A stretch of 64,000 nucleotides of DNA, from the NCBI RefSeq assembly GCF_003668575.1, contig NZ_RCVZ01000007.1, positions 148,347-212,346 on the forward strand, in the 5' to 3' direction. Shown here piece after piece: positions 33,116 to 58,409 of the stretch. Position numbers and translations under genes: made by a program. Source of the stretch: Falsibacillus albus. GTDB taxonomy: Bacteria > Bacillota > Bacilli > Bacillales > DSM-25281. Under the pieces are notes generated by a model. The model made no database searches and was not told where the DNA came from. It saw only the letters and a program-made list of their open reading frames with translations. How positions within the stretch are numbered: the stretch's first letter is position 1; the number at the start of each line of letters is the position of its first letter.

Positions 33116-33187
33116 TTTAAATTGTTAATTTCATGAAAATATCTTTACAACCATTATTCTCAAGAGTAAAATGATTTTCGAATCGTA

Positions 33188-33322
33188 AAAAACAATGCCG
33201 AATCCTTTATGGAGCGGGGGACCCAACATGTGGTAAGTCAACCACACAGGGGTGAACCATATGGAAGGGCACATTCCAGCCCGAACCCGACAGCTAACCT
33301 CGCAGGCGAATTGGATCGAGTC
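33188..33322 (+). ncRNA. c-di-AMP riboswitch (ydaO/yuaA family)
   Basis: The conserved blocks CCGAATCC, AGCGGGGGACCCAA, GGGGTGAACC, CCAGCCCGAACCCGACAGCTAACCT (span about 33275-33300) and CGCAGGCGAA are all present in order. This class senses c-di-AMP and switches off potassium uptake and cell-wall genes. Here it precedes a potassium transporter and a strong terminator, the expected OFF-switch layout. Confidence 0.93.
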
Positions 33323-33341
33323 TGATAATAGGCTTCTCAAT

Positions 33342-42040: not shown

Positions 42041-42598
42041 TCAAGCTTCCATCGCCTGTTCCTGTTCTTCTTGCTGCCGCATGATGTAAAGGGTGAATAG
42101 GTCTTTAGGAATTTCATAAAGATCATAGACTTCTTCAACAGCATTCAACTGCTCGTAGACAGATCTTCTCGTTTCGTTGGCATTGATGACATATGGCAGT
42201 TTTTCAGCTGCTTTCCTTGAGCGTCCATTGACTTTACGGATACGCATGAAAATGGTCTGGATATCAGTTTCGAAGAAAAGCTCTTTGAAAAATTCATCCT
42301 TAGCAATGTTGTTGTATCCTTTCCCGTGGAACGGTTTCCCGATCCATGTTCCCAGAAATCCTGCACCATCCTGGATATCGAACAGGTTGATAGTTCCGAT
42401 GGGATTTCCCCACTCGTCCAGGATCGTCCTTGAAATTAATTCTCCTTGGTCTTCAGCTTCGATTGTTTGCTTTGTCAAGAAGACAAATTCATCATAGGAA
42501 TATGCTTTATGGCGAACAAAAGGGAAAACATCAGGGTGCGTCATCAACTCAAACAAAATGTGACATTCTTGTCCGCATATCTCTCGCTTTTTAAGCAT
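42041..42598 (-). CDS. GNAT family N-acetyltransferase
   Basis: This 185-residue protein has a RimJ/RimL-like GNAT fold: PIGTINLFDI near residue 65, then GTWIGKPFHGKGYNNIAKDEF, the acetyl-CoA-binding strand and loop. A Gln/Glu-rich tail ends it. ATG 42598 has a strong GGGAGGG site. An in-frame upstream extension to 42757 exists but reads through a structured leader and has no ribosome binding site, so it is not used. The substrate is unknown. The leader is unusual, see 42640-42751. Confidence 0.85.
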   Translation of the reverse strand: MLKKREICGQECHILFELMTHPDVFPFVRHKAYSYDEFVFLTKQTIEAEDQGELISRTILDEWGNPIGTINLFDIQDGAGFLGTWIGKPFHGKGYNNIAKDEFFKELFFETDIQTIFMRIRKVNGRSRKAAEKLPYVINANETRRSVYEQLNAVEEVYDLYEIPKDLFTLYIMRQQEEQEQAMEA

Positions 42599-42639
42599 GA
42601 GAATCCCTCCCGAAGAGAGCAGTCCTGTGGTTGGTAAGG

Positions 42640-42687
42640 CCCACCCTCGAAATTTTTCATAGACTTCATAAAAAATTTCGGGGTGGG
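42640..42687 (-). promoter_or_regulatory. Long leader hairpin competing with the tRNA-like fold
   Basis: CCCACCCCGAAATTTTT and AAAAATTTCGAGGGTGGG (minus-strand sense) form about 17 pairs with one bulge around an 8-11 base loop. Its 5' arm is the T-stem and acceptor 3' strand of the tRNA-like element, so only one of the two structures can form. There is no T-tract, so it is not a simple terminator. Confidence 0.7.
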
Positions 42688-42751
42688 AATCGAACCCACT
42701 AGGACCAGCTTGAAGCATTTTGCTGGTGGCGCACCATTTGCCTTCCCTCAA
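42675..42751 (-). ncRNA. tRNA-like element in the GNAT gene leader
   Basis: Read on the minus strand, this 77-base segment folds as a tRNA. The acceptor is UUGAGGG/CCCGAAA with a tandem G-A mismatch. The D-arm is GGC-AAAUGGUGC-GCC, holding the GG pair. The anticodon-type stem is CCAGC/GCUGG with an oversized 12-base loop, AAAAUGCUUCAA. The variable region is UCCUA. The T-arm is GUGGG-UUCGAUU-CCCAC, a canonical T-loop. No CCA end is encoded and no normal anticodon loop exists, so it is not a standard decoding tRNA. It might relate to the stationary-phase tRNA-like RNA (tRNA-Other) reported in B. cereus, or be a cis-regulatory mimic or a decayed tRNA. Confidence 0.6.
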
Positions 42752-42901
42752 TCGCATATTTTATTAAATTTTTAGATATGACATATTAAAATCTATTTCC
42801 TCTGTATCATACAAAAAAATCAGCGAAATGGGAATAGGAAATTTGTTAATTTTTCTTGAAGTTTTTCAGCAAAATTTTACAATATTCAACAAGCAATTCA
42901 G

Positions 42902-48841: not shown

Positions 48842-48991
48842 TAGGATTTCCTTCGGGGCTGGGTGAAAATCCCGACCGGCGGTGATGAGGCTGCGCCTCT
48901 TAGTCCGTGACCCGTTTTTCATATGGATAACGGTGGATTTGGTGAAATTCCAAAGCCGACAGTGAAAGTCTGGATGGGAGAAGGAAACAGC
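48842..48991 (+). ncRNA. FMN riboswitch (RFN element)
   Basis: The conserved segments TTCGGGGCTGGGTGAAAATC (about 48853), CCGACCGGCGGTGATG, AGTCCGTGACCC, GGATTTGGTGAAATTCC and CCGACAGTGAAAGTCTGGATG (about 48955-48976), then GGGAGAAGGA, are all present in order. It controls the downstream rib genes by premature termination when FMN is abundant. Confidence 0.97.
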
Positions 48992-54330: not shown

Positions 54331-54556
54331 GGTGTTTTCTCAAAGATCGTTGTTTCAAAAGGACATTATGTTAACCATTCCTCATTAGATGTTGATTGGA
54401 GAGGGAGGTGCGGCGGGCCAGGTGAAACCCCGCAGCGGAGTGAGGAGATATAAGGAGGATGTTCGATTAAGTTCGGCACGTCGTGTGCCAACATCGAACG
54501 ACCTCACCTCCAGTGAGGCCCCTCGGAAAGCGAACATCTTTCCTTGGAAATCAAAC
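54331..54556 (+). repeat. Dispersed MITE-like repeat, right end missing
   Basis: The left end GGTGTTTTCTCAAAGATCGT matches the full-length copy. The middle has GGTGAAACCCCGCAGCGGAG and the nested palindrome GTTCGATTAAGTTCGGCACG...CGTGTGCCAACATCGAAC. The core CCCCTCGGAAAGCGAACATC and GGAAATCAAA follows. The AACAAACTTTACGAA right terminus is absent. Confidence 0.75.
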
Positions 54557-58161: not shown

Positions 58162-58409
58162 GGCTCTTTTCTCAAACCAGTGACAGAATTGGCTTATGAC
58201 CTCGAGCCCCTAAGACCTGGAGCTAGACAGGTGAGACCCCGCAGTGAAGCGAGGAGTTATTAGGCGGATGTTCGATTAAGTTCGGCACGTCGTGTGCCAA
58301 CCTCGAACGACCTCACTTTGTGTGAGGCACTCGGAAAGCGAGCATCCTGCAGCGGAAATGAACCTTACACAACCTTTAATGAATAGGAACAAACTTTATG
58401 AAAAGGGCG
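58162..58409 (+). repeat. Dispersed MITE-like repeat copy
   Basis: The left end GGCTCTTTTCTCAAA and right end TTTATGAAAAGGGC are inverted relatives. The middle has GGTGAGACCCCGCAGTGAAG, the nested palindrome around AAGTTCGGCACGTCGTGTG and CGAACGACCTCACTTTGTG. The core CTCGGAAAGCGAGCATCCTG and CAGCGGAAATGAACC follows. It fills most of the divergent gap between the protease gene and dapF. The remaining gap bases are promoter regions. Confidence 0.8.

Follow-up and report, generated by a model that had tools for sequence, protein, structure and literature searches.

A conserved tRNA-like leader RNA, probably a translational switch, upstream of a GNAT acetyltransferase gene in Falsibacillus albus and related bacteria

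The nearest precedent for the RNA described here is the yjdF, or azaaromatic, riboswitch (RF01764), which is presented in its study (PMC9142559) as a tRNA-like translational ON switch in a 5′ leader, furnished with equivalents of the D-loop and the T-loop. In its OFF state the strand of the T-arm is engaged outside that arm, by direct pairing with the Shine-Dalgarno sequence, and a variant from S. ratti has an acceptor stem of 4 base pairs; in some cases, according to its authors, the switch controls acetyltransferases (PMC9142559). Leaders of GNAT acetyltransferase genes also harbour the guanidine-IV riboswitch and its variant Gd4v, as PMC9788692 reports. A third system, tRNA-Other of Bacillus cereus, is characterized in PMC3399842 by a Trp anticodon, a position flanking a pathogenicity island, a distribution confined to the B. 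cereus group and effects exerted in trans. The present analysis concerns a stretch of 64,000 nucleotides (nt) of Falsibacillus albus (GCF_003668575.1, contig NZ_RCVZ01000007.1, 148,347–212,346), hereafter the window, to which coordinates refer unless a contig is given. On its minus strand an amidohydrolase gene and a GNAT acetyltransferase gene flank a leader of tRNA-like layout, which is probably a cis-acting translational ON switch whose tRNA-elbow sensor is likely to be held by a small molecule.

Layout and conservation of the leader

Read 5′ to 3′ from 42747, the leader begins with GGG (42747–42745), the 5′ strand of an acceptor-like helix, P1, whose partner is CCC at 42682–42680. A joining AA (42744–42743), invariant in the alignment A1 described below, leads to the D-like arm GGC-AAAUGGUGC-GCC (42742–42728), which has GG in its loop and is kept in the orthologous leaders located through their GNAT genes. 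The anticodon-like place is taken by a third arm, ACCAGC...GCUGGU (42727–42704), whose stem shows covariation in A1 and whose loop is not conserved; it is followed by the variable loop CCUA (42703–42700; consensus YYUA in a count of 179 copies) and by the T-arm GUGGG-UUCGAUU-CCCAC (42699–42683), recognizable from the sequence and from the predicted fold. 3′ of CCC come a lower hairpin, GAAAUUUUU...AAAAAUUUC (42679–42649), the strand GAGGGUGG (42648–42641), a spacer, the strand CUGCUCUC (42622–42615; mostly CUGCCCUC in other genomes) and GGGAGGG (42611–42605), the Shine-Dalgarno sequence of the GNAT gene, 6 nt 5′ of the start codon at 42598.

Five of these strands matter for alternative pairing: segment A is the 5′ strand of the T-arm, segment B is CCCACCCC (42687–42680), and segments C, D and E are the last three strands named above. 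By sequence and predicted fold, B may pair with A and P1 in the tRNA-like fold or with C in an alternative hairpin, C with B or D, and D with C or the Shine-Dalgarno sequence, whereas the lower hairpin fits both folds. Because B, C, D and E form a succession of complementary strands, pairings between neighbouring segments are mutually exclusive.

Most Bacillus-related genomes in the analysis have the leader 5′ of the GNAT gene, and it is strongly conserved. A covariance model was built from 24 of 30 leaders (alignment A1), six near duplicates being left out. Of the 299 genomes sampled from the order it matched 232, in 225 cases strongly (expectation value E 6.4e-11 or better); the other seven matches were weak (E > 1e-4) and were not counted, and the one of these that was fetched is a tRNA-Gly. 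Among 398 genomes sampled across the phylum there are six strong matches, five of them in the same order; among 398 from the class, 34 match at E 1e-6, of which 27 fall in the order and seven in one other family, presumably Planococcaceae. A pattern scan of named genomes yielded at least 120 loci, the matches listed covering genera such as Rossellomorea, Priestia, Neobacillus, Cytobacillus, Halobacillus, Oceanobacillus, Metabacillus and Parageobacillus, and no pattern match was obtained in viral contigs (phages, viruses). Two members of the putative Planococcaceae are divergent: one leader (L065) has the T-stem GUAGG/CCUAC, and another (L269) has GAGGACAG as segment C with a matching CUGUCC downstream, in which the series of pairings seems to have been rebuilt with other letters.

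Among the matches listed, 119 of 120 loci fetched by the pattern have the GNAT gene on the same strand, 80–260 nt from the start of the element, which is the position of a riboswitch in the 5′ leader of its gene; in the sole exception the stored stretch stops 74 nt beyond the element. The model yielded 67 loci, partly from the same genomes, and 66 of these have the gene; upstream of each of the 29 GNAT orthologues ranked best outside this genome, the same leader is found. In the first 61 genomes the leader was present in 48 of the 49 with the GNAT gene and in none of the 12 without it. One genome (G073) encodes two paralogous GNATs, 69 and 61% identical to the query, each with its own copy of the leader. 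The same genome harbours a third, orphan copy without a GNAT gene (C23:12145–12240, minus strand), which may be a remnant, or an RNA in its own right. Conversely, a GNAT orthologue 51% identical to the query (L241; G030:C34:272200–273500) has lost its leader.

Counts of conserved letters need some care. The patterns behind the count of 179 copies and a second one of 169, the latter including loci fetched through the GNAT gene, demand parts of the core, and the invariance of GGG, AA, GGC, GCC and UUCGAUU in these counts therefore arises by construction. A count free of this bias covers the upstream regions of 47 of the 49 GNAT genes mentioned above. Here the T-loop UUCGAUU of the proposed sensor domain is present in 46 of 47 loci. 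A script recognized the D arm, T-stem, CCC and variable loop in 45 of them; it passed over L242, where it had picked a different TTCGATT but where these parts are visible on reading, and L241 alone lacks the element.

The initial annotation had proposed a tRNA mimic competing with another fold as a regulatory device, for which an aminoacyl-tRNA synthetase, RNase P or RNase Z, or the state of tRNA modification might be what is sensed, and had named lack of conservation upstream of orthologous genes, or identity with a plain tRNA pseudogene, as findings that would speak against it. Both were looked for and neither was found, and the idea of a regulatory device kept 5′ of orthologous GNAT genes is supported; its overall interpretation is supported in part, as the details below make clear.

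Covariation, strand pairing and predicted direction

In A1 the tRNA-like fold together with the lower hairpin has 98.8% of its cells paired and nine pairs changed on both sides, and the covariation score was reached by none of 500 shuffles. Six of the nine belong to the lower hairpin, which is common to both folds, two to the third arm and one to the T-stem; the tRNA-like part contributes few because P1 and the D-like arm are invariable. The lower hairpin, with 97.2% of cells paired and six of nine pairs changed on both sides, is proven by covariation, which also supports the third arm and the T-stem. Over the 179 copies, pair 4 of the third arm is AU in 156, GC in 18, UA in four and GU in one, and the outer pair of the T-arm is GC in 168, AU in eight and GU in three. 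Two of the three positions of P1 are paired in all 24 aligned leaders and the third in 23, and the alternative hairpin has 97.1% of its cells paired. For P1, the D-like arm and the elbow contact the case is made by invariance and likeness to tRNA; the tRNA-like layout emerges from sequence and alignment, and a three-dimensional elbow would be its probable consequence.

A complete cloverleaf had been claimed for 42751–42675. In the predicted fold of these 77 nt the D-like arm, third arm, variable region and T-arm do form, and three acceptor pairs, GGG/CCC, are common to the relatives; the outer pairs of the supposed 7-pair acceptor, with their G-A mismatches, are not, and the 12-base loop of the anticodon-type stem varies freely in length and sequence among copies. 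The stability of the cloverleaf alone is at chance level (z −0.72, 46 of 200 shuffles as good), and it is conservation that raises it above chance. The long hairpin of CCCACCCCGAAAUUUUU (from 42687) with AAAAAUUUCGAGGGUGG (42657–42641), by contrast, is present as described and dominates the predicted fold of the 171-nt leader, for which z is −3.74 and none of 200 shuffles folds as well. Two further segments are absent from the initial annotation, the strand complementary to the Shine-Dalgarno sequence (42622–42615) and the Shine-Dalgarno sequence itself (42611–42605).

The pairings were examined by a cognate test, which compares the pairing of each arm with its own partner against that with permuted partners from other copies. 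From 167 copies, four unparsed ones were removed and duplicates merged, leaving 151; the C:D test used 149, two being too short, and its version outside the conserved cores the 121 with sufficiently long arms. Cognate B:C pairs average −22.06 kcal/mol against −19.77 for permuted ones (z −15.5, 151 copies) and cognate C:D pairs −17.53 against −14.95 (z −14.4, 149 copies), and outside the conserved cores the C:D values are −2.79 and −1.96 (z −5.8, 121 copies). Controls with reversed arms gave z values of −1.5 and −0.5 for C:D and of −2.6 and −4.2 for B:C, and a B:D control, a pairing outside the proposed model, showed no cognate signal (z −1.4). On this comparative evidence the B:C and C:D pairings are real, with some inflation by relatedness; the D:E pairing is plausible from complementarity.

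The direction of the switch was predicted by folding each copy with P1, the D-like arm and the T-stem enforced (ON) or with the 5′ strand of the T-stem barred from pairing (OFF). The mean predicted probability that the Shine-Dalgarno sequence is unpaired is 0.60 in the ON state and 0.28 in the OFF state, whereas shuffled tails differ by 0.02. The gain exceeds 0.1 in 126 of 167 copies, lies within 0.1 in 36 and is reversed by more than 0.1 in five. The predicted energy of ON minus OFF, which leaves tertiary contacts out of account, is +3.6 ± 3.4 kcal/mol, with ON the lower in 20 of 167 copies; an ON state less stable than OFF fits an ON switch that awaits a stabilizing partner. The mutually exclusive pairings of an expression platform are thus represented by B:C, C:D and the opening of the Shine-Dalgarno sequence, and D:E finds no support in its own test.

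A mechanism may be sketched as follows. During synthesis of the RNA the tRNA-like part would be able to fold first. If it is held, B would remain in the T-stem and P1, C would pair with D, and E would be left free for the ribosome: this would be the ON state. If it is unfolded, C would invade B to form the long hairpin, D would close on E and initiation would be damped. A ligand seated in the core, near the joining AA and the loop of the D-like arm, may be the stimulus; either this ligand or a related amine might be what the enzyme acts on. The leader might in addition work directly on the ribosome: in the yjdF study tRNA-like leaders are reported to bind ribosomes and to raise translation (PMC9142559). 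A small molecule is favoured as partner because the letters of junction and loop are kept beyond the needs of pairing and because the nearest precedent responds to one.

Control of transcription appears less likely, since no T run comes after the B:C hairpin in the sequence and the terminator scan lists no site there. A predicted intrinsic terminator, 12 pairs and then a T run, does lie 3′ of the GNAT gene (42039–42010), in a scan that returned two such sites against a shuffle mean of 1.0. A promoter for the leader is predicted with −35 TTCCCA at 42834–42829 and −10 TATGAT at 42811–42806, matching nine of 12 consensus bases. Promoter-like sites in the region are no commoner than in its shuffles, and taken alone the prediction is weak; of 165 copies, 64 have TATGATA within the 130 nt 5′ of the element, where shuffles would give 7.5.

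Several observations weigh against a translational switch of this kind. D:E carries no cognate signal (−8.38 against −8.32 kcal/mol, z −1.4, 177 of 2000 permutations as good), a lack qualified by the fact that segment E is held by the 16S rRNA anyway. The permutations of the cognate test leave phylogeny in, and relatedness explains part of the B:C signal, since one reversed-arm control reaches z −4.2. In a coarse test of the 8-nt core of C, covering 36 variants, D pairs better with its own C than with the consensus C in three, equally in 18 and worse in 15, and there is no compensation. The copy in the window gains little (0.28 ON, 0.14 OFF), the direction being the same, and its free minimum-energy fold, at −59.0 kcal/mol, is neither the ON state (−47.1) nor the OFF state (−51.6). 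The elbow contact between GG and the T-loop is invariant and hence outside the reach of covariation. Finally, the role given to a small molecule could belong to a protein or to the ribosome; the data do not tell a small molecule from a protein partner.

The enzyme, the partner and rival explanations

The GNAT N-acetyltransferase (42598–42041) has 185 amino acids and matches Pfam Acetyltransf_3 (PF13302, E 5.6e-10). Its AlphaFold2 model has a mean predicted local distance difference test score (pLDDT) of 91; Foldseek places SpeG first by E-value, and VIA-align has FdhC, RimL, SpeG and PseH within about 1 Z unit. The fold affords no choice of substrate. TacT-type toxins are absent from the 50 rows of each of the two lists, which is no evidence against kinship. 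At the C-terminus (42052–42041) a Glu-Ala end following a variable linker is found in at least 90% of 35 aligned proteins. The amidohydrolase gene (44029–42902) stands 5′ of the GNAT gene on the same strand, as does its counterpart in 54 of the 100 named loci with a gene in that place; the adjacency may be synteny only, or a functional pair.

The most specific form of the preferred account is that the leader represents a new riboswitch class distributed among Bacillus-type bacteria, with the tRNA elbow as aptamer, in which a small amine or drug that is the substrate of the GNAT would lock the tRNA fold and, by a relay of four strands, open the ribosome site; in this full form it is a tentative proposal with slightly less than an even chance of being right.

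The strongest rival regards the tRNA-like domain as the site at which an elbow-recognizing protein, such as TruB, TrmFO, RNase P, SmpB or the GNAT itself, sets the switch. The T-arm is indeed full and canonical, richer than a bare T-loop motif needs, and its exact 17 nt recur once in the genome, in the transfer-messenger RNA (tmRNA; G000:C3:221243–221259). The weak cross-matches of the covariance model are, in addition, real tRNAs: tRNA-Gly at 34 of 35 loci and tRNA-Asn at one. However, the T-arm of the leader does not track that of tmRNA: over 16 genomes, the T-loop of most tmRNAs reads UUCGACU, against UUCGAUU in the leader. For this comparison 20 tmRNAs were fetched, two of them from genomes without the leader, and the script did not find the T-arm in four. 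Mimicry of tmRNA for SmpB was dropped as a specific claim, the two T-arms not following each other across genomes. The tRNA-Gly, tRNA-Asn and tRNA-Glu of the own genome score alike (24.7 to 23.5 bits), and no single tRNA is therefore mimicked. A P1 of three pairs is short for RNase P, and with the GNAT as partner the predicted sign would be positive feedback. Overall, a protein that sets the switch is unlikely, though it deserves to be kept in view.

A leader that needs no partner is improbable. Its fold would respond to Mg2+, polyamine or temperature, in the manner of tRNA folding, or the leader would boost translation constitutively through ribosome binding. This suits the closeness in energy of the two folds and the resemblance of the GNAT model to SpeG polyamine acetyltransferases, among others, and leader tRNAs grafted in the yjdF study are described there as boosting translation without ligand (PMC9142559). 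The predicted excess of the OFF state is read in the preferred account, that of a switch held by a ligand, as the mark of a missing stabilizer.

It is scarcely credible that the element is a tRNA relic or pseudogene merely adjoining the gene, for although its layout is cloverleaf-like and ARAGORN calls a tRNA at the leader in two of 40 loci, there is no call in the other 38 or in the window, the leader is not among the genome's 61 tRNA (RF00005) matches, and the sequence is kept across many genera together with complementary downstream strands that no tRNA needs, whose conservation refutes a relic as a sufficient account. The decayed tRNA entertained at the outset is, on the ARAGORN and RF00005 results, not supported.

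Comparison with known systems

Rfam 15 has no family for the leader, at gathering score or under relaxed limits: a search of a 341-base stretch with E up to 5 returned chance-level matches only, such as tRNA-Sec, whose 14.6 bits fall short of the cut-off of 47. Elsewhere in the window five RNAs reach the gathering score: an FMN riboswitch (48845–48989, plus strand), a c-di-AMP riboswitch (33186–33323, plus), BsrC (63821–63735, minus) and two copies of Bacillaceae-1 (54451–54517 and 58260–58326, plus). A 2017 study surveyed 224 candidate RNAs, the motifs of which are reportedly for the most part in Rfam. A literature search, with subscription papers and supplements outside its scope, found no description of the leader, and in the PMC papers searched two stretches of it, written as DNA and as RNA, did not occur.

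Membership of established tRNA-like classes was considered and rejected. As a tRNA the leader lacks a 7-base-pair acceptor, three acceptor-like pairs being conserved. It is not a tmRNA: RF00023 has no match at the leader, and the genome's tmRNA lies elsewhere. With tRNA-Other of B. cereus it shares the presence of a tRNA-like element within a larger regulatory RNA of a Bacillus; the kinship that had been suggested is not borne out, as the features given in PMC3399842 differ, and the Trp anticodon in a 7-nt loop has no counterpart in a third-arm loop unconserved in length and sequence.

Among riboswitches, none of the Rfam models matches the leader under strict or relaxed limits, RF00230 of the T-box included. 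The T-box shares with it the logic of the tRNA elbow, and AGGGUGG in segment C presumably recalls T-box sequence. In contrast to a T-box, the leader lacks the rest of that sequence, its UGG is not kept (UGA and UAG variants occur), and where the T-box binds a tRNA the leader mimics one. The guanidine-IV riboswitch and Gd4v are analogous in that a leader RNA precedes a GNAT gene; their target, according to PMC9788692, is transcription termination, and they are built differently.

Were the proposal correct, an unnamed and widespread cis-regulatory RNA would be added to Rfam and, together with yjdF, a second natural and independently reached ligand-responsive switch built on the tRNA fold. Culturable species, with a single gene as clean readout, would allow tests of how a tRNA fold can sense a molecule, the near-invariant core would offer a precise target for ligand screening, and the leader would point to a function for a GNAT family without an assigned substrate.

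The closest comparison is with yjdF, whose existence corrects the initial impression that no leader of this kind had been described. Both have a tRNA-like layout with D-loop and T-loop equivalents 5′ of the Shine-Dalgarno sequence, in the leader as predicted, and its joining AA would by analogy occupy the place of the yjdF ligand site. They differ in the route to the ribosome site: the T-arm side of yjdF contacts the Shine-Dalgarno sequence directly, whereas the leader would relay through C and D, although its segment B, CCCACCCC, could touch GGAGGG weakly at most. With the RF01764 model, neither the own genome (E up to 10) nor the 341-base stretch (E up to 5) gave a match, and the leader model, run on 20 yjdF loci, found nothing beyond chance in 16, its best overlap with an aptamer scoring 7.0 bits (E 6.6). 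Three genomes of the order (G040, G058 and G079) carry both RNAs. On the best reading the leader would work in the manner of yjdF, the tRNA-fold riboswitch known before it; sequence comparison shows no kinship between the two, and by that measure the leader is a separate case.
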